From contig NZ_CP014870.1 in assembly GCF_001661075.1 (NCBI RefSeq), positions 5,461,703-5,525,702 of the forward strand: 64,000 nucleotides of DNA, given 5' to 3'. Position 1 is the stretch's first letter, and every line of letters starts with the position of its first letter. This document shows positions 48,044 through 64,000 of this stretch, one piece after another. Both the position numbers and the translations under genes were made by a program. The notes beneath the pieces were generated by a model. The model was given only the letters and a program-made list of their open reading frames with translations, had not been told where the DNA came from and did not search any database. This DNA is from Pseudomonas silesiensis (GTDB taxonomy: Bacteria > Pseudomonadota > Gammaproteobacteria > Pseudomonadales > Pseudomonadaceae).

Positions 48044-48085
48044 GGCAGCGCTCCTGGTGATTGCCTGGCGGTGGCTTTGGACATT

Positions 48086-48733
48086 TCAGGGTGCGATGGC
48101 CGGCGCTACGCGCGCCATGTCCATCCACGCCCGAACGCTGTCGCGATCCCATTGGCGGCGCACATACGCCGCGAGTCGCGCAGGCACCTGATCGCCATTG
48201 GCGAGCAGACGGTTGAGCATGATTGCCAGGTCGGTGTCGGCAATGCTCCAGTCGCCGAACAGGTGATCGGCGCCCTCTTCCAGCAACCGGTCAGCCACGA
48301 AGAACAATCTGCCGACAGCGGCCAGGGCCTCGTCGGACAGCGGGTTATCTTTTTTGCCGAAGTAGATGAGGTCCGCCGGACGCTCCTTGCGTATCACCAG
48401 CAGATCGCTGCGCAGCCAGGCCTGGAGTTGACGAGCGCGGGCGCGCTGCCTGATGTCCAGCGGGAATAATTTGTTATGCCCCGGTATAACTTCCTCCAGG
48501 TATTCGGCAATGGCCGAAGATTCCGACAGGGCAAAACCTTCGTGAACCAAGGTGGGAATCTTGCAAGTCAGCGATACATCACGATAACTGGCCTGATAGT
48601 TTTCTCGCGCCTTTAAATCCAGCGTGACAAGATCAAATGAAAGTTGCTTTTCTTTTAGCGCCACAAATGCCGACATTGCAAAAGCACTGACAAAATCCGC
48701 GCCAACATACAGTTTAAACCTGGTACTTTCCAT
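48086..48733 (-). CDS. Glutathione S-transferase family protein
   Basis: The 215-residue protein has an N-terminal thioredoxin fold (FKLYVGADFVSAFAMSAFVA and CKIPTLVHEGFALSESSAI, the latter with the cis-Pro and Ser of the glutathione site) and a helical C-terminal domain (LFGDWSIADTDLAIML). It is closest in pattern to YfcF-type GSTs. It heads the second half of the cluster, with a terminator upstream, so it may begin a separate transcript. It could detoxify or modify a reactive intermediate. Confidence 0.85.
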   Translation of the reverse strand: MESTRFKLYVGADFVSAFAMSAFVALKEKQLSFDLVTLDLKARENYQASYRDVSLTCKIPTLVHEGFALSESSAIAEYLEEVIPGHNKLFPLDIRQRARARQLQAWLRSDLLVIRKERPADLIYFGKKDNPLSDEALAAVGRLFFVADRLLEEGADHLFGDWSIADTDLAIMLNRLLANGDQVPARLAAYVRRQWDRDSVRAWMDMARVAPAIAP

Positions 48734-48894
48734 AGAACGCTCCCTTGCATCAAGCCCATTAATCCGTTGCCTTGGAAGTTATCCTAGTTAGTTGCCCAGG
48801 CGCTGAACAGATACAGAAATTCTCTGTTTCTATCGATACAGAAACTCGAAAATACGGATGACCGGGAGGATTCGGCTGGGGCAGCAAAAAAGAA

Positions 48895-48925
48895 AAAGGG
48901 AGTCAGCAAATGCGGACTCCCTTTT
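48895..48925 (-). terminator. Terminator after the cupin gene
   Basis: GGGAGTC and GACTCCC form a perfect stem with A-rich and T-rich flanks on both sides. Placed after the cupin stop, it ends or attenuates the MFS-to-cupin transcript before the GST gene. Confidence 0.88.
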
Positions 48926-48960
48926 TGTGAAGCAGAGGGAAAATGACGGCGGGCGGGTGA

Positions 48961-49422
48961 TCAGGCCATGGCTGAACCGGCGAGCAGTTCCATCTGCGGC
49001 ATGTTGCTCATGTTCAGCATGGCCAGCGGTTCGGTGGCGCTGGTGTTGACGAAGCCGTGGCGGGTCCAGGCCGGCACCAGCAACACGTCGCCGGTGCTGA
49101 CGCCCACTTCATCGGCCTCGCCCAGGGTCAACGCGCCGCTGCCGGACTGTATGATGAACAGGTGCCACCAGGCATGAACGTGGCCGTTCAACACCGTACC
49201 GGGTTTCAACCATTGCATGGACACCGCCATGCCCGGCGTGAGCTTGCAACCTTCGATAGTTCTTTCATGGGCCAGCGCGACAATATCGACTTCGCTGCTC
49301 TCGAGACTCTGGCGCACCCCTGCAAGTTCGGCCGCCTTCCATACCCGTGCACTGGCCGGCGGCTGGTGCAAACTCTGGCGAAAGTCCTTATATGAAAAAA
49401 ACGCACCTTGAACGTTATTCAT
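48961..49422 (-). CDS. Cupin domain-containing protein
   Basis: The 153-residue protein is a single-domain cupin with motif 1 NGHVHAWWHLFIIQSGSGAL and motif 2 GDVLLVPAWTRHGFVN; the metal ligands would be the two His of GHVHA, a further His and the RHG His. The usual Glu of motif 1 is not obvious, so metal binding may be reduced. It lies 80 bases from the RidA gene in the same direction. A role in a pathway oxidation or isomerisation step is possible. Confidence 0.82.
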   Translation of the reverse strand: MNNVQGAFFSYKDFRQSLHQPPASARVWKAAELAGVRQSLESSEVDIVALAHERTIEGCKLTPGMAVSMQWLKPGTVLNGHVHAWWHLFIIQSGSGALTLGEADEVGVSTGDVLLVPAWTRHGFVNTSATEPLAMLNMSNMPQMELLAGSAMA

Positions 49423-49506
49423 CCGCGAGTTCCAACTTGTTTGGTCGACTTGAATGACCGAACCTTAGGCCAACCCCTCAGGACTGTAAAGCCGCCGACC
49501 CCATAC

Positions 49507-50001
49507 TTATAACACCGAGGGTCTCAGGGCTGCGATCATGTCAACTTCCACCGCGGCATTCTTTGGCAATTGATAAACACCCACAGTCGTTCGAGTATGT
49601 TTACCGGCGTCCCCCAGGACATGGCTGAATACATCCGACGCACCGTTGGCCACTTCGCTCAGGTCTACAAAATCCGCCGTGGATTTCACATAGACCGTTA
49701 TCCGTATCAGCGACTTGATCTTATCCAGCGAACCAATGGCGTCGACTATCAGCGCCAGCCCGCGCATCGCGCTGATACTGGCGGCCGATTGCGCATCCGT
49801 CAGGCTGAGCTCCAGCCCGACTCTGCCCGGATACTGCATCTTTCCGTTCATGCGCGGCACCAGGCCACTGACGTACAGTTCGTCATGATGCCGAACCAGC
49901 GGAGCATAATGCCCACCGGCGGTGTTCTCGCCATAGATGTCGTAGCCGAGTTCTTTTGCCAGGGCGATGAAACGTTCATCACAGCTCATGTGCTCAATCA
50001 T
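49507..50001 (-). CDS. RidA (YjgF/YER057c/UK114) family protein
   Basis: The 164-residue protein has the RidA fold with YVSGLVPRMNGKMQYPGRVG, QSAASISAMRGLALI and the C-terminal GVYQLPKNAAVEVDMIAAL. RidA proteins hydrolyse reactive enamine/imine intermediates from PLP enzymes; biosynthetic homologues can catalyse specific deaminations or cyclisations. The catalytic Arg of RidA (usually in IRITVY-like segments, here SLIRITVYVKS) appears present. The pairing with aminotransferase and aminomutase genes in this cluster fits that role. Confidence 0.87.
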   Translation of the reverse strand: MIEHMSCDERFIALAKELGYDIYGENTAGGHYAPLVRHHDELYVSGLVPRMNGKMQYPGRVGLELSLTDAQSAASISAMRGLALIVDAIGSLDKIKSLIRITVYVKSTADFVDLSEVANGASDVFSHVLGDAGKHTRTTVGVYQLPKNAAVEVDMIAALRPSVL

Positions 50002-50049
50002 TTACCAACCCTCATGCTCAATAATGCAAACAACATCGATGCCGACGGC

Positions 50050-51330
50050 TCAGCCCACCGCTCTCGACGGCGCTGCCAGGCAGGTGACCTCGACGCGTGA
50101 CTCGATCGCTTCTGCCAAACGCAGCAGATTGGCACTGAGCTGCCCGTAGTCCTCGCTGAACAACACGATGTGGCCGATGAACGAGGTGTTGTCTTTCACC
50201 AATGCCGTTACCGAATCCGTGAGGCGCTTGGCGTACACCGCTTCCACCAGCTTGATATCGAGTTCCCGGGCCAGGGACTCGATGTCCGGCACGTAGCGCA
50301 ACAGACCGCCGGCCGGGGCGCGGAGCAGACGAATACCGCAAAAGCCCCGGGCGACGGGGTCGTGATGGTCGGTCTTGCCCTCCACCGCCCATCGAACCCA
50401 GCGCTCCCAGGGGTCGAAGTCGACAAAGGCCAGGCGGGCCAGGTCCCAGATGTGCATGCCGCCAGGGCGCATGTTGGTTTCCACCGCCGAGGTCAGGCCG
50501 TCGCTGCGCAGGAAAATTTCGTTGTGGTAAGCGCCGTTATCCAGCGAAACCAGGCCGGACATATGCTGGCCGGCTGCCGCCAGGCGCGCCTGCACCTCAG
50601 TCGTCAAGGGTGCGGGCACCACTTGCTGGATTTCCGCGCGATAGGCACCTTCGGTGGTAGTTTTCTCGGTCACCCAGGTGCTGCCGGCCACGTAGTCCCA
50701 GCTGTATTCCCGGGCGTTCTGGATCAGTTCTTCGAGGACGATGCCACCTTCGCGGTAGGGCTTGAGCGCCAGCCACGCCTCATCGCATTCGGACGGATGA
50801 CGGATGACCCGGCAGCCTCTGCTCGCGCCTTCGCAAGCAGGCTTGATGAAGGCTCGGCCGCCGAGCTCGACGACCCGCTGGCGCAATTCGCCCAGGCTTT
50901 CGATCCGGGCGGAAAACACCGGTCGGTAGTGATCTGGCGACGTACGCGCCGTCGCTTCCAGATGGCGAAAAATCTGTTTATCCAGCCCCGCCCGAGCCGC
51001 GCCGGGGGTGATGCCGGGCAAGCCGTAGTAGGTCGCCAGCGCCGCGCCCAGCAGCACGCCACGATCGGAAAAGGGCAGCACCCCGATCAACTTCCAGCGG
51101 TCTGCTGCCAGGCAGCCCGCCACCAGTTCGAGCGAGTCCGCCACATCGTCCGGCGCCAGGGAGGTGCAACACACGTGATCCGCCACCTGATCGTCATCCG
51201 GCTGAATCTGCTCGACCAGCAAAATCAACCGCGCGTTATAGCGCTTTCGGCAAAGGTCGCGCAGCTTCTGGATATCGTGAACCCGATTGCCGTTGTACCC
51301 GACCACTACCACGCAAGACGTCGTATTCAT
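50050..51330 (-). CDS. ATP-grasp domain ligase
   Basis: The 426-residue protein shows the ATP-grasp layout: an N-terminal Rossmann-like domain (SCVVVVGYNGNRVHDI), lysine-bearing strand GGRAFIKPACEGASRGCRVI, EEFL-like GGIVLEELIQNAREYSWDYV, and metal-binding VETNMRPGGMHIWDLA. Such enzymes form amide bonds by acyl-phosphate chemistry, often as NRPS-independent ligases in natural product clusters. It follows the MFS gene by 42 bases. It is the best candidate for the condensation step of this locus. Confidence 0.86.
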   Translation of the reverse strand: MNTTSCVVVVGYNGNRVHDIQKLRDLCRKRYNARLILLVEQIQPDDDQVADHVCCTSLAPDDVADSLELVAGCLAADRWKLIGVLPFSDRGVLLGAALATYYGLPGITPGAARAGLDKQIFRHLEATARTSPDHYRPVFSARIESLGELRQRVVELGGRAFIKPACEGASRGCRVIRHPSECDEAWLALKPYREGGIVLEELIQNAREYSWDYVAGSTWVTEKTTTEGAYRAEIQQVVPAPLTTEVQARLAAAGQHMSGLVSLDNGAYHNEIFLRSDGLTSAVETNMRPGGMHIWDLARLAFVDFDPWERWVRWAVEGKTDHHDPVARGFCGIRLLRAPAGGLLRYVPDIESLARELDIKLVEAVYAKRLTDSVTALVKDNTSFIGHIVLFSEDYGQLSANLLRLAEAIESRVEVTCLAAPSRAVG

Positions 51331-51372
51331 GAAACACCCGACCAGTGAAGAAAAAAACGGACACGCGATGAC

Positions 51373-52473
51373 TCAGTCCTGCAGCGACGCGTTGGATTTA
51401 CGGTTGAGCCAGTACCAGGCCAGAATCCCGCCCGCGCCGATGGCGGCCAGCACCAGGGCGTTGTACGGCGCCGGCACAACCCGCATGATCAGCACCGTCA
51501 GGCCGGCACCGACGCCCAGGGATACTTCCTTGACGAACATGTTGTTCTGCTTGACCGAGAAGTAATCGAGGTAGCTGAACGCACATTCGGCGACGGACAG
51601 CAGCGCCACCCAGATCAACGCGCCAACCAGGGTCTCGACGTGGAAGGCGGCCGGGGACGACAGCACGGCGAAGCCGCCGATGATGATCCCGATCACCGCC
51701 ACCACCTTGAAGCGCCCGGTGCGTTCGATCAGCTTCATCACCGGCACCTGGGCAAATACCACCACCGCGCTGTTGAGGATCAGCATCAAGCCGTACCAGG
51801 CCGGCAACTCACCGGTCTCGAGCAGGATCGCCTGGGGCAGGATCGAGAACACGCCAAACAGCTTGATCCCCATGATGATGCCGGCAATCGCCCATGGCAG
51901 TTTATTGCGCCAGCCACTGCCGTCGTGGGTTGCCGGACGGGCCACGGCCGATTCGGTGGTGAAGGTGGCGCCCATGGCGATGGGCAGGCACAGCAGGACG
52001 AAACTCGCGGCGCCAAGGAAAAACATGGTCGGAGTCAGCAGCGGCGACAGCAGGATCAGCCCCGCCAGCAGGCTGCCCATGTTCATGGCGACCCGGTTGT
52101 AGGCCGCACCTTCCTTGGTCTGGGCCGCTTCGCTCTTGATCAGGTAACCGGCGATGGCGATGCCATAGGCAAACAACGCCGCGGCGAACATCACCATGCC
52201 CTGATTGCTGGTCACCGCCAACAGCACCAGCCCGAGGGCGGCGCACAACAGCGTGACGCTCAGGGAGCGACGGCCGAGCACCAGCAACGTCAGGGGCAAA
52301 AGCAACAACAAGGCCCGATAACCGAGGGCGAGAATGCTGTTGGTGGCGGTGTCGAGCCACACGTTGGCCTTGCCCAGCACGGCAAACAGCGACACGGCGG
52401 TGATGATCCTGATCGTGAACAGGCGGATGTTGATCACCGGTTTGGCGACGGCGACCGTTGTTTGAACACTCAT
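51373..52473 (-). CDS. MFS-type transporter
   Basis: The 366-residue product has about 11-12 hydrophobic helices, including TIRIITAVSLFAVLGKANV, AVTSNQGMVMFAAALFAYGI and GIIMGIKLFGVFSILPQAI. The ATG at 52473 follows AGAGGTGTTGC; a longer frame upstream would cross the divergent promoter region and was not used. It is the first gene of the leftward cluster and probably exports the product or takes up a precursor. The substrate is unknown. Confidence 0.82.
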   Translation of the reverse strand: MSVQTTVAVAKPVINIRLFTIRIITAVSLFAVLGKANVWLDTATNSILALGYRALLLLLPLTLLVLGRRSLSVTLLCAALGLVLLAVTSNQGMVMFAAALFAYGIAIAGYLIKSEAAQTKEGAAYNRVAMNMGSLLAGLILLSPLLTPTMFFLGAASFVLLCLPIAMGATFTTESAVARPATHDGSGWRNKLPWAIAGIIMGIKLFGVFSILPQAILLETGELPAWYGLMLILNSAVVVFAQVPVMKLIERTGRFKVVAVIGIIIGGFAVLSSPAAFHVETLVGALIWVALLSVAECAFSYLDYFSVKQNNMFVKEVSLGVGAGLTVLIMRVVPAPYNALVLAAIGAGGILAWYWLNRKSNASLQD

Positions 52474-52575
52474 GCAACACCTCTGGAACCAGGCGATCGC
52501 CAGGGCCAAAAGGCGCCGACAATCCGGAAAGTCTGTAAGGTGATGGTAGAGATGAAGGCTTGTTCTGATCAGGGC

Positions 52576-52601
52576 AAGTTCGTATAGAATCAAACGAACT
52601 T
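52576..52601. promoter_or_regulatory. Inverted repeat in the divergent promoter region, candidate MocR operator
   Basis: AAGTTCG and CGAACTT are perfect 7-base complements 12 bases apart, enclosing TATAGAAT, a probable -10 for the rightward MocR gene. It lies between the MFS gene (leftward) and MocR copy 2 (rightward), where an autoregulator would bind. Confidence 0.6.
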
Positions 52602-52623
52602 TACTGTCGGAGAGACCAGTAAA

Positions 52624-54033
52624 ATGCAGGTTCAACGCGCAGTCATCGCCGCCATCGAATTCCAGCCCGGCGCACCGCTGGTGCAGCAGATCGTCGATCA
52701 ACTGACCGCTGCGATCAGCCAGGGCGGCCTGCCCCACGGCTCCAGGCTGCCGCCGATTCGCGAACTCTCCGATATGATGAACGTCGGCAAGTCCACGGTG
52801 GTCGATGCCCTGGACCGCTTGCGGGCCAAGGGATTGGTGGTGTCACGCCAGGGGTCGGGGCATTACGTGCACCGCTCCAGCATCCCGACCCAGACCGATG
52901 CCGGCCCCGACCTGCAACCTCAAGACACACTCAGCGTGGTCCGCCGCGCGGTGTTGCTGGACAATGGCGCGCTACGCCCTGGCGCCGGTTTCCTGCCTTC
53001 CTCGTGGTTGCCGGCCGACGAGTTGCTTAAAGCCGTGCGCGGCACCCTGCGCGCAGCCTCCCTGCGTATGGGCGAATATGGCGTTGCCGGCGGCTACCTG
53101 CCGCTGCGCGAGGCGTTGCGGGTGAAGCTGTCGACCCACGGCATCGAAGTCCCGGTGGACCAGATCATCACCACGGCCAACACCGTGCAGGCCATCGACA
53201 TGCTGATGCGCCTGCTGCTCAAGCCCGGCGACACGGTGCTGCTCGACGACCCCTGTTACTTCACCATGCACGCCAACCTGGCCTTGCACGGTGCCAAGGT
53301 CATCACCATTCCCCGGGATTGCGACGGCATGGACCTGGACGCCTTCGAGCAATTGCTGATCGCCCATCGTCCCGTTCTCTACATGACCAACAGTACCCTG
53401 CACAACCCGACCGGGCACTCATTCTCCCCCGCGCAGGTTTATCGCCTGCTGGAGTTGAGCCATCGTTACGGTTTCCACATCCTCGAAGACGACTTGTATT
53501 GCGACATGCAGCAACGCATGACGCCACGCCTGGCAGCGGGTGGCCTGGATAATGTCAGTTACGTGTCCGGTTTCTCCAAGACCCTGACGGCTAACAGTCG
53601 GGTCAGCTATGCGGTGCTTTCGCCACAACTGGCCGCACGGATGATCACCCTGAAAATGACCTGTGGCGGCATGACGTCGGAACTGGCGGAGCAGATTATC
53701 TGCACGATGCTCAGTGATGGCAGCTACGCCAAACATACCCGGCGCACGGTGGATCGGCTTTACGAGTCCAGCAGCCGGGTGACCAGCTGGCTGCTGGAGG
53801 CCGGTTGCTCGGTGTCATCGCTGCCCCATGAAGGGTTGTTTATCTGGACGCGTTTGCCGGAAGGGCATCATGCCGAAACTTTAGCGAGGAAAGGTCTGGA
53901 GATCGATCTGGTGCTCGCACCCGGCACGTTGCTCAGTAAGGCGCCGGATGCGAGCCACTACCTGCGCTTCAACGTCGCTCACAGCGATAACACCCAGGTG
54001 CGCGAGCGGTTCTTGCGATTGCTCGACAGCTGA
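52624..54033 (+). CDS. MocR-type GntR/aminotransferase regulator, copy 2
   Basis: The 469-residue protein has a GntR winged helix (IVDQLTAAISQGGLPHGSRL and MNVGKSTVVDALDRLRAKGL) followed by a fold-type I aminotransferase-like domain. The probable PLP lysine is in VSGFSKTLTANSRVSY, and TNSTLHNPTGHSFSP is the family's NPTG segment. It is divergent from the ten-gene leftward cluster and is the likely local regulator, sensing PLP or a pathway amino acid. An inverted repeat 23 bases upstream of its start may be its operator. Confidence 0.9.
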   Translation: MQVQRAVIAAIEFQPGAPLVQQIVDQLTAAISQGGLPHGSRLPPIRELSDMMNVGKSTVVDALDRLRAKGLVVSRQGSGHYVHRSSIPTQTDAGPDLQPQDTLSVVRRAVLLDNGALRPGAGFLPSSWLPADELLKAVRGTLRAASLRMGEYGVAGGYLPLREALRVKLSTHGIEVPVDQIITTANTVQAIDMLMRLLLKPGDTVLLDDPCYFTMHANLALHGAKVITIPRDCDGMDLDAFEQLLIAHRPVLYMTNSTLHNPTGHSFSPAQVYRLLELSHRYGFHILEDDLYCDMQQRMTPRLAAGGLDNVSYVSGFSKTLTANSRVSYAVLSPQLAARMITLKMTCGGMTSELAEQIICTMLSDGSYAKHTRRTVDRLYESSSRVTSWLLEAGCSVSSLPHEGLFIWTRLPEGHHAETLARKGLEIDLVLAPGTLLSKAPDASHYLRFNVAHSDNTQVRERFLRLLDS

Positions 54034-54048
54034 CACCCCCTGTCGACG

Positions 54049-54816
54049 CTAGAGATTGTCCAGATAGGCTGTTGGTGATTGCCCCAATATTCTACGAAAC
54101 ATTGTTGAAAACGCAGCAGGGCTTTCATACCCAAAATCAAGGGCTATCCGTGTAATGGACGCTCCGGCGGACAACCTTGCCAATGCAAGGACAACGCAGG
54201 CACGCTGACGCCACTGACCGAAGCTCATCGTAGTCTGCTCGCGGAACAGACGGCTGAACGAGCGCTCACTCATATATAGGTCACGCGCCCAGTCTTGCGG
54301 CGATTGATGAATGTCGGGCACCTGAAGAAATGCCTGGCAACGGGACAATAAACGCGGATCAATCGGTAGCGGGATATGAAAAGGTAATTCTGTGGCCCGG
54401 GCCAATTCATGTAGCAAAAGACTCATCAACGCGCCATCCCGGCCCTGTTCTTCATATTCAAGCGGCACGTCTACGGACTCCATCAGCAACTGGCGCAGCA
54501 ACGGTGAGACGCTGATGACCTGGCAGTCGGTTCTGGTTGAAGGAATGGAAGCGGGTTCAATATAGAGGCTTCTGGTACTCACCCCAAAGTACAGCACCTC
54601 ATGCGCAACCTGCGGCGGAATCCACACTGCACGCTGGGGTGGAACGATCCAGTTGCCACCCTTTGTCACGACCTTCATTACCCCTTTGGCGCCATAGAGG
54701 AGCTGTGCGCGCCGATGAGTATGGCTGGGGTGCAAAAATCCATCGGGATAGTCGGATCCGATGGCAACAACGGAGCGAGGGGTAGCATCCAGCACGTGGA
54801 TCGGAATGTTTCGCAT
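54049..54816 (-). CDS. AraC-family transcriptional regulator
   Basis: The 255-residue protein has an N-terminal cupin-like sensor part (HPSHTHRRAQLLYGAKGVMK) and a C-terminal pair of HTH motifs (SPQDWARDLYMSERSFSRLF and ITRIALDFGYESPAAFSTMF). This layout resembles the NimR/YeaM-like subgroup. The ATG at 54816 gives MRNIPIHVLDATP; a TTG eleven codons upstream is possible. It is convergent with MocR copy 2 and divergent from the TauE-type permease, its probable target, and could also influence the downstream locus. Confidence 0.9.
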   Translation of the reverse strand: MRNIPIHVLDATPRSVVAIGSDYPDGFLHPSHTHRRAQLLYGAKGVMKVVTKGGNWIVPPQRAVWIPPQVAHEVLYFGVSTRSLYIEPASIPSTRTDCQVISVSPLLRQLLMESVDVPLEYEEQGRDGALMSLLLHELARATELPFHIPLPIDPRLLSRCQAFLQVPDIHQSPQDWARDLYMSERSFSRLFREQTTMSFGQWRQRACVVLALARLSAGASITRIALDFGYESPAAFSTMFRRILGQSPTAYLDNL

Positions 54817-54928
54817 GGGATGTCTTATCAGAAAGTGGCCGAAACTCAAACATAGTTGGCTCGAATGCTCAAGCCGCTCGCAATCGAGTGACCTATCTTA
54901 CGCCGCGATTCTTATTGGATTAAGCGTA

Positions 54929-55744
54929 ATGAGCTATATTCTGCTGGGTTTTTTTGGTTGTTTTGCAGGCGTCACCACCGTTTTATTCGGATTTGGGGGC
55001 GGTTTTGTAATAGTGCCTGTCCTCTATCGGGTTTTGTTAGCCATGCATGGTGCCGATGACATGATCGCCCAGTCAGCAATGCATATTGCTGTGGCTACCT
55101 CTACCTGCGTCATGATCGTGAATGCATCCATCAGTACAAGAAAACATGCGCGTTCCGGTACTCTATTAATGCCCTATCTGTGGCCTCTTGCCGGGTACAT
55201 TGGTCTCGGGGCAATTGCCGGAGCTATTACCGCGGAACTGTTTGATAGCGAAATGTTACGCATGGCATTCGTTATATATTTAGCGATTACTATTGTTGAT
55301 TGCCTGTTTCGCCGCGGTTTCATTGAGCAAATAGCAAATAACCAACCCAAAGGGCTAAGCAAACTCGCCACGATACCGGGCGGCATGAGCATTGGAGCCA
55401 TTGCAACCGTCCTCGGGGTCGGCGGCAGTGTCATGACGGTTCCCTTGCTTCGGCGCTGCGGCTTGAGTATGACTCAGGCCACCTCAATGGCCAATCCACT
55501 TAGTTTACCGGTAGCGCTGGCAGGAACAGTGACATACATACTGGTAGCGGAAGTTGGAGGTTACGACTTTGGAGCCGGATACCTCGGGTATGTCGATCTT
55601 CTCGCGTTTGCTATATTAACGCTGGGGGCTGTGTTTGGCATCCGGCTGGCGACCCCATTGATCGGGAAGACGCCGGATCGAATTCACGCGATTGTGTATA
55701 TAAGTCTCCTCGTGCTTGTCCTGTTGAGCATGGTATTTAAGTAA
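54929..55744 (+). CDS. TauE/SafE-family sulfite/anion permease
   Basis: The 271-residue membrane protein has about eight helices and the TauE/SafE repeats (GFGGGFVIVPVLYRVL and GVGGSVMTVPLLRRCGLS). Members export sulfite, sulfoacetate or related anions. The ATG at 54929 starts MSYILLGFFGCFAGV; no strong ribosome binding site is seen. It is divergent from the AraC gene and separated by 140 bases from the acyl-CoA dehydrogenase gene, so membership in the following locus is uncertain. Confidence 0.85.
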   Translation: MSYILLGFFGCFAGVTTVLFGFGGGFVIVPVLYRVLLAMHGADDMIAQSAMHIAVATSTCVMIVNASISTRKHARSGTLLMPYLWPLAGYIGLGAIAGAITAELFDSEMLRMAFVIYLAITIVDCLFRRGFIEQIANNQPKGLSKLATIPGGMSIGAIATVLGVGGSVMTVPLLRRCGLSMTQATSMANPLSLPVALAGTVTYILVAEVGGYDFGAGYLGYVDLLAFAILTLGAVFGIRLATPLIGKTPDRIHAIVYISLLVLVLLSMVFK

Positions 55745-55884
55745 TGTAATTACACGCTCCGAACATTTAACGTCGAGCACAGCACTTGCTCGCAAAATTC
55801 ACGTGCGCGACAAACACGAAAATCAATTCTTGATGGAATTCCAAGTCTGGGGATCCACGCACATCATTGAAAAAGGCATAGAGC

Positions 55885-57042
55885 ATGAGCCACATCAGAC
55901 CTCAGATTTTACATCTACTGGATCAACTACAACAGTTGAACATCGCCCACCTTCCCATTGAAGAGCGGATTGGAAAACTGGTCGAACTAAAAATCCATTC
56001 GCTTCCCGTTACTTTTCACAATATGACGGCCGAAGAATACCTGGCTGTGATTGCGAATCTGGCGCAATTGGATGCATCGTCTGCCCTGAGCCTATCCATG
56101 CATCTTTATACGTTATGGGGCATCGCCACGCGCCAGGGAGAAACATTCTCCAGCGTCCTCGATGATGTATCAACTCATGGACATCTGATGGGCTCGCTAA
56201 ACGAGCCAGGTTTGTATTTTTTGACGCCTGGTCAGTTGAACATAGAAACGTACCCCATTAGGGCCAGAAAAGTCGAAGGCGGGTATCGAGTAACGGGGTT
56301 AAAGAAATTTGTATCGCTGGAGCCCTTTGTTTCTTACCTGCCAGTGTACTGCATGGTCGAAAACTACTCGGGGAACGACCTTGGTGTCATTGCGTTGATG
56401 TTAAGCAAAAATGGCGAGGGTGTTTCAGTTCTTGAGGACTGGAACAGCGTTGCCATGCAGGATACTCACAGCAATAGTGTGAAATTTGATAACGCATTTT
56501 GTCCTGATGCGTTTGTAATCTGTAACGAAAACACCCCTATATCCACGCTGGCCGTCCAAGGCTACCTGTTCCGTTTTAACGTGTGCTGCGTGTATCTCGG
56601 CATCTCGCGTCAAGTACTCGACTTGGCAATCAATACAGCCAGCACAAAACGCCCACCCAACGGAAACAATGTCCTGGCGAAGTACCCGGGCGTGCAATTC
56701 TCAATAGCGGAAATGCTGATTTCAATGGAAGTAATGGAGTCGCAGATGCGCTCCTTCTGTTCGGTGCTGGATGATTTCCTGGCCAGCAAGGAGGATGTAG
56801 ATTTAAACGTCAACAGAATCAGTCTCATTGCCAAGGAAGTCATCGCCCGCGAGTCAGAGCTGTTAGTTTCAAGCGCCATGAAAATAACCGGGATCAACAG
56901 CCTGTCAAATGAAAATCCATTATCAAGCATCTTCAAGGATATAAAAGCTGCGCAATTTCATCCACCACAACGCGATGTAACGTATGAAATCCTGGCCAAA
57001 GAAAAACTCGGCGTAATATCTTACAAACAACGGTGGATGTAA
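55885..57042 (+). CDS. Acyl-CoA dehydrogenase family protein
   Basis: The 385-residue flavoprotein-like sequence fits the acyl-CoA dehydrogenase fold: a helical N-terminal domain, a mid beta domain with GSLNEPGLYFL, VEGGYRVTGLKKFVS and MQDTHSNSVKFDNAF, and a C-terminal helical domain with FRFNVCCVYLGISRQVLDLA. In a carrier-protein cluster such enzymes often oxidise an aminoacyl- or acyl-S-carrier substrate. Several fatty-acid ACAD features (a clear catalytic Glu) could not be confirmed by eye. It begins a seven-gene rightward run and ends two bases before the ligase ATG. Composition is AT-richer than the core genes. Confidence 0.83.
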   Translation: MSHIRPQILHLLDQLQQLNIAHLPIEERIGKLVELKIHSLPVTFHNMTAEEYLAVIANLAQLDASSALSLSMHLYTLWGIATRQGETFSSVLDDVSTHGHLMGSLNEPGLYFLTPGQLNIETYPIRARKVEGGYRVTGLKKFVSLEPFVSYLPVYCMVENYSGNDLGVIALMLSKNGEGVSVLEDWNSVAMQDTHSNSVKFDNAFCPDAFVICNENTPISTLAVQGYLFRFNVCCVYLGISRQVLDLAINTASTKRPPNGNNVLAKYPGVQFSIAEMLISMEVMESQMRSFCSVLDDFLASKEDVDLNVNRISLIAKEVIARESELLVSSAMKITGINSLSNENPLSSIFKDIKAAQFHPPQRDVTYEILAKEKLGVISYKQRWM

Positions 57043-57044
57043 AA

Positions 57045-58196
57045 ATGAATATGTTTGCAAAGCAGATTTCAAGCAGCGACTTGAACCAAATAAAAGCGGC
57101 ATTACCCGCTAAAATCATGAATGGGCGACTGAGTGAGTTGCTGGAGCGCATTCCGTACATCAGCGAATCGGTGAAAAGTGTTAAATACCTCGAAGGTGAG
57201 CACGCCACACTAATCGATATTGACACTCAAGATCTGGCAGAACGGGACAAGATCAACGTTGATCTGGACGAACTCATCGACGCTTTGCTGGTTTCGAAAA
57301 TATCTGCTCAAAAAAAATTAAAAGTCCATGCGCGCCCGAATGGCCAATCCCAGGCAACATACCCTGACAACTCCGCAGCCTATTACGATGGAAATGATGT
57401 ACGCCTGATGGAGGCCATAGACAGGTTACTGCTTGAAGTAGCGGTTCGTCACGGCGCCCATGTGCGGGATTATGCATCGATTTATACAGCCGACATAATG
57501 GAAAGAAATGGCTACCATAAAAATTTCCCTCAGAACGTTTATGGCGTCACGCAAATACCCCATAACTACACCCTGATTAAAGAAATTCGCGAATCTCAGT
57601 CATCGACCATTCCTGCTAATTTATTCCAAAATCATGGCGCCTTCTTACAGCCATGTGTTTGCTACCACTGTTACGCAGAAATCCAGGAAACCGTGCAATC
57701 GGAAATCATGTTTACGTTGAAGGGGCGATGCTTTCGACATGAAATTCAGTGGCGACTCAACACCTTCCGTCGCAACGAGTTCACCATGCGTGAAATAGTG
57801 TTCATGGGCAGCCAAGCGTATGTGGAAAGCAAGCGACTGGGCATCATGGATGAAATTTGGGACCTTTTTTGCTCGCTTGGTCTTTATGGTCAGGTCGTGA
57901 CCGCTCGCGATCCCTTTTTTCATTATGACGACATGAAAACCAAAGGTGCGGTGCAATTAATGGCGGACGCAAAGTACGAACTGGAATTCATTTCTGCCAA
58001 CGGCAACGCGAGTTCCATAGCTTCGTTCAACAATTGCCAGGATACGTTATGTGAAAAATTTGAAGTCACGAATGATGAAAAAAGCTTTTTGCATTCTGGC
58101 TGCGTAGCTTTCGGAATTGATCGGTGGCGTGCAGCTTTGTATGAACAGTATGGTCCCGATAATCGTAACTGGCCTGAAAAACTAAAAAATGCGTAA
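57045..58196 (+). CDS. Amino acid:[carrier protein] ligase (SerRS-like class II synthetase homologue)
   Basis: The 383-residue protein resembles the atypical seryl-tRNA synthetase homologues that lack a tRNA-binding domain and instead load an amino acid onto a carrier protein (family first described in Bradyrhizobium, from memory). Visible features are the Cys-rich zinc segment PCVCYHCYAEI, motif-2-like GRCFRHEIQWRLNTFRRNEF, MREIVFMGS, and the C-terminal ATP-binding SGCVAFGIDRWRAAL. The adjacent gene encodes the expected free-standing carrier protein. The substrate may be a small amino acid such as glycine or alanine. The start is taken at 57045; a GTG at 57033 overlaps the preceding gene. 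Confidence 0.85.
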   Translation: MNMFAKQISSSDLNQIKAALPAKIMNGRLSELLERIPYISESVKSVKYLEGEHATLIDIDTQDLAERDKINVDLDELIDALLVSKISAQKKLKVHARPNGQSQATYPDNSAAYYDGNDVRLMEAIDRLLLEVAVRHGAHVRDYASIYTADIMERNGYHKNFPQNVYGVTQIPHNYTLIKEIRESQSSTIPANLFQNHGAFLQPCVCYHCYAEIQETVQSEIMFTLKGRCFRHEIQWRLNTFRRNEFTMREIVFMGSQAYVESKRLGIMDEIWDLFCSLGLYGQVVTARDPFFHYDDMKTKGAVQLMADAKYELEFISANGNASSIASFNNCQDTLCEKFEVTNDEKSFLHSGCVAFGIDRWRAALYEQYGPDNRNWPEKLKNA

Positions 58197-58222
58197 CGCC
58201 ATCTAAACAGGAACATCGTGCA

Positions 58223-58474
58223 ATGGACTTAATTCAAGAAACCGTATTCCGGGTCATCGGCAACGTTATAGGTTCTGAGCTGACGGTCGATATGGATTCG
58301 TCCCTATCCGAAATGCGGGTCAACTCTATAAAAATCATCCAAATCATTGCCATGCTGGAGAACGAACTCAACTTCGAACTCGACGAGGAGGATTTGCTCA
58401 TGAGCAATTTTGCTACACCTCGGCAAACAATCAACTTGCTTCGCGAAAAATACGGCTCGGTAGAATCAGCATGA
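58223..58474 (+). CDS. Acyl/aminoacyl carrier protein
   Basis: The 83-residue acidic helical protein matches the carrier-protein fold. The phosphopantetheine Ser is Ser35 in SEMRVNSIKIIQIIAML (the usual DSL motif written NSI), and ELNFELDEEDLL forms the following helix. It lies between the ligase and the formyltransferase and overlaps the latter by 4 bases. It should be activated by the phosphopantetheinyl transferase at the end of the run. Confidence 0.88.
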   Translation: MDLIQETVFRVIGNVIGSELTVDMDSSLSEMRVNSIKIIQIIAMLENELNFELDEEDLLMSNFATPRQTINLLREKYGSVESA

Positions 58475-59349
58475 CCTGTCGCATCGCCTACATATGCGGA
58501 GTACAGGGATTGTCATTGGTCCCCCTCTTACGGGGCATCACTGAGCCTGAAGACCTGATGGTTTTTGCCTCGCAATCTGCCTTTAACGAATGGGAGGGTG
58601 ATACCCAAAATATAGAGCCTATTGAGTGCGCCGAGATGTTAAGAGCGGCCTTAGTGACTTTCCGCCCTGACATAATTCTTGTAATGACTTATCTTTCGAA
58701 ATTAGATGTATCACTTTCGAAATCAAGCAAGTACGGCATGGTTAACATCCACCCTTCCCTGTTACCTGAATATCGCGGAGGAGCACCGATTTTTTATGCA
58801 CTGAAAAATGGAGAAGAACACGTAGGCGTGACTTATCATTTCATGACCGAGGTGTTTGACCAAGGCGATATTATTGAACAAGCATCCATAAAAGTAACCC
58901 CCACGGACTGTGCCAGCTCGGTGTGGTTAAAGGTGATAAAGAAGATATTCGCTGGCCTGCCAAAGATTATTGAAAATCGAAGCCAGTGGACTTCAATGGC
59001 AAGAAAGCAGGATGAAAACATTGCCACTTCGATAGGATTTCCTTCGCTGGGGGAACGAAGTTTAAGCAAACTAAAAACCGTATCAGAGAACCTTAGCATC
59101 ATCAGAGCGTGTGGGCGAGCTACGGGTGCACGTTTATCCCTGGAAGGCCATATAGTTTTTGTCACCGAAGCAAGTGTGGCGCCGGCAAACGCCGCATTGA
59201 ATGAAAGCCCAGAGAGCTGGATAGAAAATGAAAGTACGCTTCTATTCAAGGTGCTGGACGGCTGGCTGGAAATTAACGCAGCGAAGCTCGACGGAATAAC
59301 AATTTCTTCGTGGAGGTTTTTGATGGAAGCATTAGCCCATGGCGCTTAA
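58471..59349 (+). CDS. Formyltransferase family protein (Fmt-like N-terminal domain)
   Basis: The 292-residue protein has the 10-formyl-THF transferase signature: MVNIHPSLLPEYRGGAPIFY (Asn92, His94) and Asp130 in TEVFDQGDIIEQA, with the same 36-residue His-to-Asp spacing as methionyl-tRNA formyltransferase. The C-terminal part is unlike the tRNA-binding domain, so the acceptor is probably a small amine or carrier-bound group. It overlaps the carrier-protein gene by 4 bases and the next gene by 11. N-formylation of the pathway intermediate is inferred. Confidence 0.88.
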   Translation: MTCRIAYICGVQGLSLVPLLRGITEPEDLMVFASQSAFNEWEGDTQNIEPIECAEMLRAALVTFRPDIILVMTYLSKLDVSLSKSSKYGMVNIHPSLLPEYRGGAPIFYALKNGEEHVGVTYHFMTEVFDQGDIIEQASIKVTPTDCASSVWLKVIKKIFAGLPKIIENRSQWTSMARKQDENIATSIGFPSLGERSLSKLKTVSENLSIIRACGRATGARLSLEGHIVFVTEASVAPANAALNESPESWIENESTLLFKVLDGWLEINAAKLDGITISSWRFLMEALAHGA

Positions 59350-60313
59350 TCAGGACACATTGAACATCGAAAGTCAGCCATTCCCCTACGACACTGAACA
59401 TTATGACAGGCGTTTTCTGGATTGCTGGCGAAGGCAAGCCGTCGTATTTCTGGAGAAGTGTGGCGCCGACGTCGATCTGCTATTTTATAATTCACTTGCT
59501 TCGACAGACCGGATTTTTGAAGACCATATTCTGAATCACAAACCCAAGTATGCTTTTTTGACGCCCTCAATAGATAACGAGGGACTGTCTTTGACAGGCT
59601 GGCAACAAAGCCTGAAGACATACGAAACGTTCGAGTTGGCGGGCGACGACCTAAGTGAGCACTTGGAGAAGATTCCATTTGCCATCGTCATGGGCAGTGT
59701 ATTTTATTTACCACATTGCCCCGAATACCAAATGGAACATCTTAACCACTCGATTGTGCTATCCGGACAATGCGCTCACTCCGTTTGGGAGGTGATTGAT
59801 GATGACCCCTCCTCTATATTGAGAACGTATCGCTACGATCAAAGCTACATCGAGAGATATTTCAACAACAATGGCGCACGCCTGATCAGATATTTCAAGC
59901 CGATCGAGATCGACACAACTGAGAGCGGACGTGACATTGCCATACAAAAGTGTGCAACTTACTTATCCTCAATGGAGGACAGTTACAAACTGCTTACTGA
60001 AATAGAATGGATTGCGAACAACCCATACGAATCCGTTAGCATTCGCGCAAAAAAAATACATGAGGCATTTTCAATATACTCCGGCTCGCGAAGTTTGTTT
60101 TCAAGATTTGCCGAACGTGTCTTGGGCGATCAAGTCGCTGCTTCCCACTTAAATGACATCGCTGCTGAGGCAATGGTCATAAAATACGCCATGGCCAAGG
60201 CTGAAATCACACACCGCATAAATGTCGGATCAATCGTATCAAGATGCGAAAAGCTGGCAGTTCATGAACGCCGCACCCTTTCGCTGTTAAGAAAAAACCT
60301 GGGATGTTCCTAA
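59339..60313 (+). CDS. Putative papain-like acyltransferase (BtrH_N-like)
   Basis: The 324-residue protein is not well known, but its N-terminal half resembles BtrH_N/DUF4872-type cysteine acyltransferases. Cys29 (FLDCWRRQAVVFLEK) could be the nucleophile, His134 or His137 in MEHLNHSIVLSGQ the base, and VWEVIDDDPSS the Asp element; IVMGSVFYLPHCPEYQ matches the segment before the His in that family. BtrH moves an acyl group from a carrier protein in butirosin synthesis. Here it may release the product from the carrier protein. The C-terminal half is helical and unassigned. It overlaps the formyltransferase gene. Confidence 0.6.
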   Translation: MALNQDTLNIESQPFPYDTEHYDRRFLDCWRRQAVVFLEKCGADVDLLFYNSLASTDRIFEDHILNHKPKYAFLTPSIDNEGLSLTGWQQSLKTYETFELAGDDLSEHLEKIPFAIVMGSVFYLPHCPEYQMEHLNHSIVLSGQCAHSVWEVIDDDPSSILRTYRYDQSYIERYFNNNGARLIRYFKPIEIDTTESGRDIAIQKCATYLSSMEDSYKLLTEIEWIANNPYESVSIRAKKIHEAFSIYSGSRSLFSRFAERVLGDQVAASHLNDIAAEAMVIKYAMAKAEITHRINVGSIVSRCEKLAVHERRTLSLLRKNLGCS

Positions 60314-61582
60314 ATGGCTTTAGACATAGAACTGGAAACGGACGAGTTAAGTTACAGAAAGCTTCTTGGACAACCGAACTTCACAAGATTTTTTCTAAGC
60401 CAGGTCCTGGTAAGCGTTGGCGACGGCTTTTTTGGAGTGCTGGTAACATTTTTAGCGCTGTCGATGGGAGCGTCAGCAAGTACATTGGGTATCGTTGCGT
60501 TCTGTGTGACGTTTCCAAGAGGTATCTTGGGCATTTTAGGCGGCGCGGTTGCCGACCAATATGATCGCAGAAAACTGATGGTATTTTGTGATGTAGTCCG
60601 TGGGTCAGGTGTACTGATTCTAGCGTTGCTTTTGTTCATGAATGCTCTGGACATCTTCTTTCTTACGCTCATTGGCGCCGTTGTGACATCCACCTATGCG
60701 CTGTCGAAACCGGCGAGCAAAGCCTATGTTCCCAGTATTGTGGAAAAGAAAGAGTTAATACTCGCCAATGGGCTGGTGCAAAGTGTGCTTTGGCCTTGTT
60801 TTTTTCTGGGAGCTGGTTTAGTAGGCGTTTCAGGCGCGCTAAATGTAGCGCCGGCCAACGCCCTGATTGTCTGTGCGTTAATATTCTTTTTCTCGCAAAT
60901 GTCCCTGACGAGCATCAAGGGGCACGTGACGCGCACTGCCGCTCGAACTGCATTTTCCATGCTGCAACAGTTACGCAGTGGCTGGGAAGAGTTACTCACG
61001 CATCGAGCGTTAATGGTAAGAATCACCAGCTATTTTCTTTACACAGTGTCCTGGCGCGGCACCCTGCAAATAGCACTCCCACTGTATGCAGTCAATACAC
61101 TGAATCAACCCGCTACATTTTATAGCAGCCTGATGGTAGCTTGTGGGATTGGAGAGCTTATTAGTTCGTTGATAATAGGTAAATTGCGGATCTCGAATAA
61201 CTTGAGACTGGCGTTCTGCGGAGAAATCATTCTTGCTCTGGCACTTATCATTCTCGTCGTTAATTCTTTTACTGGTCTGCCTGCTTTGGTACTGGCGCTT
61301 ATTGCCAGCCTATTGATAGGGCTCTCAGCTACTGTCATTGACATACCCCTGATCACAGCCATTCAGCACGAAATAGACGACGACAAATCCGGAAAAATAT
61401 TTAGTTACTGGAGCGCGCTAGGTGCACTAGGAGGAAGCGTAGGCACCTTGATAGTCAGTGGACTCATCTATTTTATTGGTCTTCAAAATGCAATTATTTT
61501 CATGACGGCCTGGCTGACGCTCTCAGCAGTGGTCGCTTATGGAATTGCTTATACCAAGGTGCGCGGTGAGGGAAAGCAATAA
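60314..61582 (+). CDS. MFS transporter
   Basis: The 422-residue protein has about 12 membrane helices, beginning FLSQVLVSVGDGFFGVLVTFLA without a signal peptide. GAVADQYDRRKLMVFCD is the MFS loop 2-3 motif (GxxxDRxGRR-like). The ATG follows the preceding TAA without a gap. It is the probable exporter of the locus product. Composition is AT-rich, like its neighbours. Confidence 0.9.
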   Translation: MALDIELETDELSYRKLLGQPNFTRFFLSQVLVSVGDGFFGVLVTFLALSMGASASTLGIVAFCVTFPRGILGILGGAVADQYDRRKLMVFCDVVRGSGVLILALLLFMNALDIFFLTLIGAVVTSTYALSKPASKAYVPSIVEKKELILANGLVQSVLWPCFFLGAGLVGVSGALNVAPANALIVCALIFFFSQMSLTSIKGHVTRTAARTAFSMLQQLRSGWEELLTHRALMVRITSYFLYTVSWRGTLQIALPLYAVNTLNQPATFYSSLMVACGIGELISSLIIGKLRISNNLRLAFCGEIILALALIILVVNSFTGLPALVLALIASLLIGLSATVIDIPLITAIQHEIDDDKSGKIFSYWSALGALGGSVGTLIVSGLIYFIGLQNAIIFMTAWLTLSAVVAYGIAYTKVRGEGKQ

Positions 61583-62369
61583 ACTCACGCTTCCAGCGCG
61601 CGAACTACCGCTCATTTGGCATCAACCACTAAACACCTCTATGCCTGACCTGAATTTATTCGCAGTAGCCGCCCCCACTTTCAAGCTCAAGCACTGCGGC
61701 TTGCCCTCGCATCTGGAATCGCTTTTATCAGATGATGAGTTGCTTCGAGCCCATGGCATCAAAGACGAAACAAGCAAAACAGAATTCATGCTGGGAAGAG
61801 CCCTCCTTCGCAGTGTGATAGCCAGTTTACTCAGCTTGGTGCCGCGCCATTTACCCATTCTTATCGAACGAAATGGCAGGCCCTATTTAGATGGGTACAG
61901 CCTGGAGTTCAGCTTGAGTCATGCTTGTGGGTACGTCTGTGTTGCAGCGTCAAGGAACAGCAGGATTGGCGTCGATATCGAGGGCGGGGGTCTGTTGGAA
62001 GGGAGCGGTGTTTTGAGCAAGTATCTTCGCAAGACATTCCTTGACGACGAGGGCTCATGCCTGACCTCAGCCGACTGCGATATCGTAGGCCATTGGTGCA
62101 TGTGCGAAGCCTACGCCAAGTGTTCAGGCCAGGACATGCTTACCGCAATGCGTTCTCAAGAGTTACGTAAACTGATCCGGCAGCCACCCAGGTCTAATTG
62201 GCATGTCGGTTCGAATCACTCAATATGCCTGACGTCCGTTGCTAATGGCCAAATACCGCTCGCCCTGTGTGTGGATGCACTTCCAATGCCTTTCAGCGTT
62301 CTGGAAATTGACCTATCCGATGAGTTGTTCTTGAGCAAGCTACATCAGGAGTTGCACCAGACGGCGTAA
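61539..62369 (+). CDS. 4'-phosphopantetheinyl transferase (Sfp-type)
   Basis: The protein is up to 276 residues. Sfp-type motifs are visible: IERNGRPYLDG and LEFSLSHACGYVCVAAS (P1/P2 region), RIGVDIEGG with the metal-binding Asp-x-Glu, and the WCMCEAYAKCSG helix (the KEAxxK motif with Cys in place of the first Lys). It would convert the apo carrier protein at 58223 to its holo form. The start is uncertain: the ATG at 61539 overlaps the MFS gene by 44 bases, and GTG 61566 or ATG 61641 are alternatives. It is the last gene of the run. Confidence 0.87.
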   Translation: MELLIPRCAVRESNKLTLPARELPLIWHQPLNTSMPDLNLFAVAAPTFKLKHCGLPSHLESLLSDDELLRAHGIKDETSKTEFMLGRALLRSVIASLLSLVPRHLPILIERNGRPYLDGYSLEFSLSHACGYVCVAASRNSRIGVDIEGGGLLEGSGVLSKYLRKTFLDDEGSCLTSADCDIVGHWCMCEAYAKCSGQDMLTAMRSQELRKLIRQPPRSNWHVGSNHSICLTSVANGQIPLALCVDALPMPFSVLEIDLSDELFLSKLHQELHQTA

Positions 62370-62503: not shown

Positions 62504-64000
62504 TTACAGATCAGCAATCTTGGCCCCTTCCTTTTCCTCTTTCTGATCCCGAAGCATGGTCTGCGTGACCTGCTCAATGTAATCAAACACTTCCTCCTGA
62601 ACCGAATACTTGTACTGCTTGCGCCGGTGCTTCGAGACCGTGCCATTTTGCGACAGACACATCATTACCAGATTGGCCAAGTCACTGCCTCGGACGTCGT
62701 AGCGCTCATCAACCGCCTTGACGATCTTGTCGTAATTTTGGAGAAAAACTGTCTCTTCACGAAGCTCCACTTCAAGAGCTCGCTTGGCCATCTCCAGAGT
62801 GAATCGCACACCTGGCGTGGCATCCCAGAAGCGGTATATTGCCGGATGCCCCGTGAAGTTGAAGGACATGTTTCCCTGGTCAATCCAGCGCACGTCCCAG
62901 AATTCACGCGCTGGCCGAGAGAACTCCTGCAGGGTTTCCAGATACAGACGCTCCTCGCGCTTCATTGCCACCGACACCGGAAGCAGCAAGCCATTTTCCA
63001 ATGCCCCCGCACGGCAAAGTGTCTGGTGTATGAGGAAGCGGGAAAGGCGACCATTCCCATCCATGAAAGGGTGAAGGAAGACGAATCCAAATGAAATGAT
63101 CCCGGCGGCGATCAGAGGGTCAATACGCTTTACCGCGTCATTCCCCAATGCCATCAGCTGTTCCATCAACTCCCGACATAAGTCCGGTGCAGGTGGGACA
63201 TACGTTACACCTGCGGCACCATGCAGACCGCTTGCCAAATGGTTCTGTTCATGGCGGAACGCAGCAGCCATATCGTATGGATTGGAGATCGTTGCATTCT
63301 GGAGGGTCACCAAGTAATCCTCACTCAATGGAATGCGTTCATGGGCCTGCCGGAGCAGCTGAATGAAACGCCGGGACTTGTCTTCGCTTGGCGACTCTTT
63401 CTCGATGGCGAATGAGTCCTGGGCTTCGCTCAGATAGGCCCAGTTGATTGCCCGATCCATCATTCCTGATGGCAGGTTCTGAATGAATTGCTGCGCACGC
63501 GCCAAGATATCGTGTTGTAGCAACACCATAATCTGAGGTGTTCGTTCAACGGTGGCGCAGTAAGCTAGTGTTCCAATACCATTGAACTCAATCCGCCAGC
63601 GGGAATTACGTTCCCCTGGCATCGTCAAGTACTGCTCCGGGTCAAACAAGGGGATGAAGCCTCCCTTCACGGGGGAGTGTTGGGTCAGCTCCTCACCATT
63701 GAATGCTTCGTAGAGAAAGCAGGCCTTGCGGATGTAGATCCCGTTTGGAGCTTTTCGCAATTCGGCTTCGAGCGCTTGTGCCGGAATTCGAGGTAACGCC
63801 TGAGCTAGAATGGTGAGATTGATCCCTTCATGCTTCAACGCGAAGAGGACATGCCCGAGCAGATCATCTGGCGCAGGTGCAATTGCAGGCGGGACTGCCA
63901 ATATGTCGCCGATTCTTTCAAGCCGTGTAACAGGCTGAACTCTGGCAGGTTGGCGCAGAGGAAACGCTGAAAGCTGCAGTGCATCTTGCAGACAGGCATA
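62504..64000 (-). CDS. Fic-family protein (probable AMP transferase), 5' end beyond the window
   Basis: The coding frame stays open to the right edge, and the upstream residues (LSAFPLRQPARVQPVTRLER) look like genuine protein, so the start is probably outside the window; a TTG at 63901 is the only start-like codon usually considered. The Fic active site is FLHPFMDGNGRLSRFLIHQT, and an N-terminal inhibitory-type motif reads DSFAIEKES (S-xxx-E, with Lys where Gly or Asn is usual). A C-terminal helical/winged part with VSKHRRKQYKYSVQEE may bind a partner. Fic enzymes AMPylate Tyr, Ser or Thr on target proteins. The target is unknown. Confidence 0.88.
   Translation of the reverse strand, partial: YACLQDALQLSAFPLRQPARVQPVTRLERIGDILAVPPAIAPAPDDLLGHVLFALKHEGINLTILAQALPRIPAQALEAELRKAPNGIYIRKACFLYEAFNGEELTQHSPVKGGFIPLFDPEQYLTMPGERNSRWRIEFNGIGTLAYCATVERTPQIMVLLQHDILARAQQFIQNLPSGMMDRAINWAYLSEAQDSFAIEKESPSEDKSRRFIQLLRQAHERIPLSEDYLVTLQNATISNPYDMAAAFRHEQNHLASGLHGAAGVTYVPPAPDLCRELMEQLMALGNDAVKRIDPLIAAGIISFGFVFLHPFMDGNGRLSRFLIHQTLCRAGALENGLLLPVSVAMKREERLYLETLQEFSRPAREFWDVRWIDQGNMSFNFTGHPAIYRFWDATPGVRFTLEMAKRALEVELREETVFLQNYDKIVKAVDERYDVRGSDLANLVMMCLSQNGTVSKHRRKQYKYSVQEEVFDYIEQVTQTMLRDQKEEKEGAKIADL

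Follow-up and report, generated by a model that had tools for sequence, protein, structure and literature searches.

Seven genes on the plus strand of the Pseudomonas silesiensis chromosome, overlapping or abutting one another within an AT-rich stretch at 55885-62369 of the 64,000-nucleotide stretch analysed here (the window; NZ_CP014870.1, positions 5,461,703 to 5,525,702), appear to encode a pathway that acts on a single amino acid held by a carrier protein. The reading that we favour, with a confidence just short of even, is that this cassette makes a small, exported formyl-hydroxamate by loading, N-hydroxylating, N-formylating, transferring and exporting one carrier-held amino acid. Such a product is suggested by the pairing, within a single operon, of a flavoenzyme resembling N-oxygenases with an N-formyltransferase, and siderophores with formylated hydroxyornithine provide an analogue of the formyl-hydroxamate group. 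The basis of this reading is the gene set, its order and conservation, the catalytic residues and the predicted fold of two of the proteins, from which we infer the identity of the amino acid, nitrogen as the oxidised atom, the order of the steps, the acceptor and the product.

In the proposed scheme, a phosphopantetheinyl transferase (PPTase) would arm the carrier protein, and a ligase resembling seryl-tRNA synthetase (SerRS) would adenylate one amino acid and load it on the carrier protein as a thioester. A two-component flavin monooxygenase with the fold of the acyl-CoA dehydrogenases (ACADs) would hydroxylate the aminoacyl carrier protein, most likely on the alpha-nitrogen, and a formyltransferase would formylate the hydroxylated nitrogen, giving an N-formyl-N-hydroxy-aminoacyl thioester. 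A papain-like transferase would take the acyl group off the carrier protein and pass it to an amine (or water), and a major facilitator superfamily (MFS) protein would export the product. Hadacidin is N-formyl-N-hydroxyglycine, and it is conceivable, if on balance doubtful, that the cassette is a carrier-bound bacterial route to a hadacidin-like retro-hydroxamate (an N-formyl-N-hydroxy amino acid or the corresponding amide) that dispenses with nonribosomal peptide synthetase (NRPS) modules. The formyl-hydroxamate group occurs in enzyme inhibitors, and the cassette, if the scheme is true, would represent a minimal NRPS-free way to this metal-binding group. Since the cassette is short and brings its own PPTase and exporter, each step is testable using a handful of purified proteins. 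No description of the seven-gene combination, or of a hadacidin gene cluster, was found in the literature searched, with most subscription papers lying outside that search.

Gene set, conservation and spread

A first-pass annotation of this DNA had named seven consecutive, overlapping genes, and all of them lie where it placed them (Table 1), separated by gaps of -10, +26, -4, -11, 0 and -44 bases in order. It had described them as a complete set to activate, load, oxidise, formylate, release and export; the gene types stand, whereas release is better described as transfer and the reading of the oxidising enzyme as a dehydrogenase fares poorly.

Table 1. Genes of the cassette and the adjoining permease gene, with window coordinates
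Feature	Coordinates	Strand	Evidence
ACAD-fold flavoenzyme, read as group D-type flavin monooxygenase	55885..57042	+	PF00441, PF08028, PDB relatives, AlphaFold, residue test
SerRS-like amino acid:carrier protein ligase	57033..58196	+	NF005479, PF00587, PDB Bll0957, invariant Cys/Glu/Cys
Stand-alone carrier protein, Ser35	58223..58474	+	PF00550 33.3 bits (cut-off 20.8), alignment
10-formyltetrahydrofolate-type formyltransferase (Asn92, His94, Asp130)	58471..59349	+	PF00551, PDB Fmt/sugar N-formyltransferases, residues
Papain-like acyltransferase with predicted BtrH/CcbD/CtaG fold, 324 aa (Cys29, His137, Asp154)	59339..60313	+	Predicted fold, triad
MFS exporter	60314..61582	+	PF07690 105.9 bits (cut-off 33.4); TIGR00900 126.8 bits, below cut-off
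Putative Sfp/HetI-type PPTase	61539..62369	+	HetI model, GVDIE motif
TSUP (TauE/SafE) permease, upstream, probably outside the pathway	54929..55744	+	PF01925 130.7 bits

A 31-sequence ligase alignment was scanned against GTDB genome contigs, which confirmed 416 relatives, the best 80 being retained. In three of these best 80 loci all seven genes occur in the same order and on one strand, namely in P. fluorescens PS645 (L009), P. graminis (L010) and Roseobacter sp. HKCCD6576-2 (L011), which span two classes. Identity to the window's proteins in these loci is 39-84% for six of the proteins and 26-58% for the PPTase. The recurrence of the same genes, order and strand in three other loci argues that the cassette is more than a chance grouping. 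The earlier proposal of a pathway handling a single amino acid on a carrier protein is supported. Ligases from the four full-cassette loci form one clade (100/99 support) in a 41-row tree made up mostly of Paenibacillaceae. A single clade of all ACAD-adjacent ligases was also considered and was rejected, as it takes three changes on this tree, which has long branches.

The cassette is rare and patchy, and probably mobile, as judged by the few loci, the unrelated upstream DNA in P. graminis and Roseobacter, and phage-integrase genes in the latter. The ligase is present in two of 298 Pseudomonas genomes (the window's own and G201, of the same genus, in which it lies at the contig position seen in P. 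fluorescens PS645) and in two of 369 genomes of the window's class, the window's own again and another whose protein has 30% identity. The P. fluorescens locus and the window are collinear over window positions 46950-62322. Upstream of the ligase, over the roughly 10 kb compared in each case, P. graminis has nothing in common with the window beyond an AraC regulator gene and the TSUP gene, and Roseobacter nothing beyond the cassette, which is preceded there by two phage-integrase genes. The GC content of the seven genes is 0.45-0.52 versus 0.625 in the regulator gene at 52624-54033. The suggestion of horizontal transfer that had been drawn from AT-richness is upheld. The host genome is a single contig of 6.82 Mb; relatives of the formyltransferase at 1e-25 were absent from the plasmid collection searched.

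Proposed loading, formylation, transfer and export

The ligase matches the 'amino acid--[acyl-carrier-protein] ligase' model NF005479 with 105.9 bits (E 1.9e-30), below the cut-off of 357, and contains a class II synthetase core (PF00587, 41.4 bits, cut-off 29.3); its start is possibly at 57045, going by homologues. Among proteins of solved structure it is related to Bll0957 of Bradyrhizobium (56 bits) and more weakly to type-2 SerRS (27 bits). Three residues, Cys210, Glu254 and Cys357, are invariant in all 31 aligned sequences, and they align with C131, E176 and C279 of Bll0957, which we take to be its metal ligands, given an inferred 20-residue tag on the printed chain. The class II core and the three metal-ligand positions point to a SerRS-like ligase, as had been annotated. 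SerRS models begin to match at position 208-221 of 518, the tRNA-binding domain of SerRS is absent, and a separate full SerRS (562.6 bits) is encoded elsewhere in the genome. Bll0957 shares with the window's ligase the SerRS-like core, the Cys/Glu/Cys positions and an adjoining carrier protein, whereas the window's enzyme has a longer N-terminal part, scores at 56 bits only and falls below the NF005479 cut-off. Bll0957-type enzymes favour glycine and alanine. The substrate here is likely a common amino acid, since none of the seven genes is an amino-acid-making gene.

SerRS-like ligases of this kind have been recognised since 2010; the purpose of their aminoacyl carrier proteins is, to our knowledge, mostly open. 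The ligase neighbours differ between systems: according to a note added in proof to a 2010 paper (PMC2922099), ligases of the Bll0957 type are accompanied by a Rossmann redox enzyme and one uncharacterised protein, and in Rhizobium gallicum, unlike in the window, a DUF1839 gene adjoins the ligase. Alignment confirms the annotated attachment residue of the carrier protein, Ser35. The residue before this serine is Asn in place of Asp in all four proteobacterial cassettes (carrier protein at 58223-58474 in the window), and Asp in the carrier proteins of five aligned Paenibacillus loci.

The formyltransferase is assigned by PF00551 (79.6 bits, cut-off 26.1). Its Asn92, His94 and Asp130, correctly named in the first-pass annotation of an Fmt-like enzyme, occupy the expected places in the NxHPSLLP...D motif and are unchanged across the four cassettes. 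The closest solved relatives are Fmt and the sugar N-formyltransferases, and LgrA, whose substrate for formylation is an amino acid attached to a carrier, is also a relative in the PDB.

In the case of the papain-like transferase, no Pfam or NCBIfam model matches at 0.001, BtrH_N (PF14399) included, and PDB searches with the sequence or its profile returned nothing below E 0.5. Of two relatives scored with PF14399, one falls below the cut-off of 29.7 (L044, 25.9 bits) and one lies above it (L127, 30.8 bits). A fold search with the predicted structure retrieves AziU3, CtaG and CcbD, the last as a structure with a peptidyl carrier protein (PCP) domain; the predicted papain-like fold, with a C-terminal helical part, matches the BtrH/CcbD/CtaG/AziU3 group over the whole length of the protein but at an identity of 10-13%. 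The putative catalytic residues Cys29, His137 and Asp154 are invariant in 13/13 close homologues and follow the order and spacing seen in the C11/H128/D144 variants of CtaG. In an alignment of seven sequences, His137 and Asp154 hold, and Cys29 is lost in the distant L111 and L112. The window's protein is 95% identical to a P. fluorescens protein. The predicted fold and triad of the BtrH/CcbD/CtaG group stand on firmer ground than the chemistry proposed above, and are consistent with the Cys/His, BtrH-like acyltransferase of the first-pass annotation. The release step assigned to it fits less well: the closest folds (CcbD with its PCP domain, CtaG and AziU3) belong to enzymes of carrier-protein-based biosynthesis, and this suggests transfer rather than release.

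An MFS homologue also adjoins a BtrH-fold gene in Vibrio (L127), where genes for a Lys/Orn N-monooxygenase and for a carrier protein accompany the transferase and exporter pair. The PPTase scores under the cut-offs of PF22624 (24.0, cut-off 27) and of the HetI model NF042922 (49.6, cut-off 370), and carries a GVDIE motif; it is taken here as a putative Sfp-type PPTase, in keeping with the first-pass annotation, and the annotated exporter is retained.

Proposed oxidation of the carrier-bound amino acid

The flavoenzyme matches PF00441 (39.1 bits) and PF08028 (34.7 bits) above cut-off, and its AlphaFold model has a mean confidence score (pLDDT) of 92.6. The nearest PDB relatives are 5z8t, entitled 'Flavin-containing monooxygenase', and 5gj7; no paper on either was found in the literature searched, and they are known by molecule names and entry titles. 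Next after them in a single-sequence search come two nitrososynthases, KijD3 and DnmZ, above other dehydrogenase-named chains, and in a profile search DszC ranks beside KijD3. Flavin monooxygenases, N-oxygenases included, are thus among its relatives. KijD3 and DnmZ share the fold but only 17-18% identity, and His359, invariant in the window's enzyme and its copies, is missing from KijD3 in the printed alignment.

The fold alone is not decisive between monooxygenase and dehydrogenase. At the two known positions of the dehydrogenase base, those of residue 376 of medium-chain acyl-CoA dehydrogenase (MCAD) and residue 254 of isovaleryl-CoA dehydrogenase (IVD), the flavoenzyme has Pro360 and Phe229. 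An acidic residue is found at either position in 0/12 cluster copies (L020's first ACAD copy escaped the picking of open reading frames) versus 10/10 comparison ACADs of the same genome, in which the base is Glu in eight and Asp in two. These ten come from 33 places in the genome that match PF02770, one of them the window's; 14 were read, and four were left out of the count, L101 and L106 for their length and L104 and L105 for wrong reading frames. The absence of the dehydrogenase base from the flavoenzyme is, as judged by alignment, on firmer ground, and the protein is read here as a group D-type two-component flavin monooxygenase. The 'ACAD homologue' of the first-pass annotation therefore keeps its fold and loses its base.

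A two-component monooxygenase would pair with a flavin reductase, and the cassettes differ in this: the P. graminis cassette has an extra flavin reductase gene (best matches HpaC/StyB/HsaB, below their cut-offs) and the Roseobacter cassette an extra gene for a PPOX-type FMN flavoprotein, and a flavin reductase gene is absent from the cassettes of the window and P. fluorescens. A precedent for N-hydroxylation may be found in alanosine biosynthesis, where AlnG/AlaD, annotated as an acyl-CoA dehydrogenase, is proposed, according to two reviews, to N-hydroxylate diaminopropionate, which one of the two describes as PCP-bound (PMC7347517, PMC11705231). The likeness, a carrier-bound amino acid as substrate in the AlnG proposal, is drawn from the reviews' description.

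The same pathway could also run with the flavoenzyme oxidising a side-chain carbon or other heteroatom, and with the formyl group capping or protecting an alpha-amine that is otherwise unmodified until the transfer step. Group D monooxygenases are described as mostly hydroxylating aromatic carbon, some of them on carrier-bound substrates (PMC6165268), and the rank of DszC and the relationship of the formyltransferase to LgrA agree with such a route. We nevertheless consider it rather unlikely, given that an N-oxygenase-type flavoenzyme adjoining an N-formyltransferase fits one common nitrogen, and that one Vibrio relative of the transferase and exporter lies near a Lys/Orn N-monooxygenase.

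Desaturation of the aminoacyl thioester to an N-formyl dehydro-amino acid, the reading of the first-pass annotation, is improbable. The ACAD fold, the dehydrogenases that score close by in the fold search, the models of the prolyl-carrier dehydrogenases RedW and PigA, and the matching structures of ColB1, AnaB and PigA, enzymes whose substrates are amino acids bound to a carrier, all weigh in its favour and against N-hydroxylation; the missing acidic residues, and the nitrososynthases that outscore dehydrogenase-named chains other than 5z8t/5gj7 in the single-sequence search, speak against it. More improbable still is a cassette that merely modifies and shuttles an aminoacyl group for an NRPS or polyketide synthase, or for a cell-surface sugar, made elsewhere: the 2010 paper, in its note added in proof, does propose that SerRS-like ligase systems put a probably monooxygenated amino acid on a surface sugar (PMC2922099), PP-binding domains do occur in very large open frames elsewhere in the host genome and some Firmicute relatives adjoin polyketide-type genes, but oxygenation is the likeness to that proposal, whereas no sugar or surface gene is found among the seven, and each of the four loci retains an exporter and a PPTase within the cassette itself.

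Related modules and neighbouring genes

Strong ACAD profile matches adjoin the ligase in nine of 84 loci scanned (L009-L012, L015, L017 and L019-L021), and ten of 32 ACAD proteins (E <1e-60) have, counted by eye, a longest contig equal in length to that of one of the 120 ligase matches listed, as expected if contigs are shared. In Paenibacillus (L012, L015, L017, L019, L020 and L021), an ACAD gene and a ligase gene in the same order as in the window are followed by a carrier protein gene, with a second ACAD gene between ligase and carrier protein in L019-L021. Unlike in the window, formyltransferase and BtrH-fold profiles find no match in those loci; in the three scanned (L012, L015, L019), the triad is accompanied instead by ATP-grasp, aminotransferase, epimerase, decarboxylase or phosphoenolpyruvate (PEP)-mutase/HMGL genes. 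Since the accompanying gene sets differ across loci, the triad looks like a reusable module that would deliver an oxidised aminoacyl carrier protein.

Three relatives have distinctive settings. In Paenibacillus glacialis (L012:1494-11372) genes for a PEP-mutase, an HMGL-like protein, an aconitase and a methyltransferase precede the triad, perhaps representing a pathway for a phosphonate or for chain elongation. On a Streptomyces decoyicus plasmid (L113:1-13221), a ligase homologue (34%), a carrier protein and a cytochrome P450 lie beside dpgABC, a glycine amidinotransferase and a PGM1-related peptide ligase. On an Alkalihalophilus plasmid (L111:8097-15796), genes for a BtrH_N protein, ligase and carrier protein adjoin those for a 3-hydroxyacyl-CoA dehydrogenase, an ACAD, a HAD-IIIC protein and an acyltransferase, and polyketide-type genes.

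The TSUP permease gene, with which the first-pass annotation had begun its span of 54929..62369 without listing it, is probably foreign to the pathway, so that the span is correct for the seven genes and not for its start. This gene is divergent from an AraC regulator gene, and the pair precedes the cassette in all three Pseudomonas cassettes (window, L009 and L010). A homologue is found in 50 of 149 Pseudomonas genomes, the window's own included, and the AraC neighbour is kept in 11/11 other loci fetched (3.8 kb each), with no ACAD or ligase match. As an eighth pathway gene the permease was dropped; it is probably an older neighbour, though its place ahead of the three Pseudomonas cassettes leaves a role conceivable.

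Directly after the PPTase gene, on the minus strand at 62504-63901, is a Fic-domain gene (PADLOC candidate PDC-S24, 2e-172), for which no matching open reading frame was found in the L009 stretch compared. Upstream, at 46703-52737, is a second small operon, encoding a weak radical-SAM match (446 aa), a glutathione S-transferase, a cupin, a Rid/YjgF protein, a weak ATP-grasp match and a 454-aa protein, and accompanied by a GntR-aminotransferase (MocR-type) regulator (52624-54033). This operon looks biosynthetic; it is syntenic in L009 and was not seen in the L010 or L011 stretches compared. Further upstream, at 19676-22266, an AAA ATPase (PADLOC HEC-03B, 2e-126) and HEC-03A (2e-29) are followed by an RNA_ligase-domain protein. 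The HEC-03 genes lie in an AT-rich patch shortly after a tRNA-Leu gene (18757), and represent a candidate defence system of the HEC-03 type, carried by an island.

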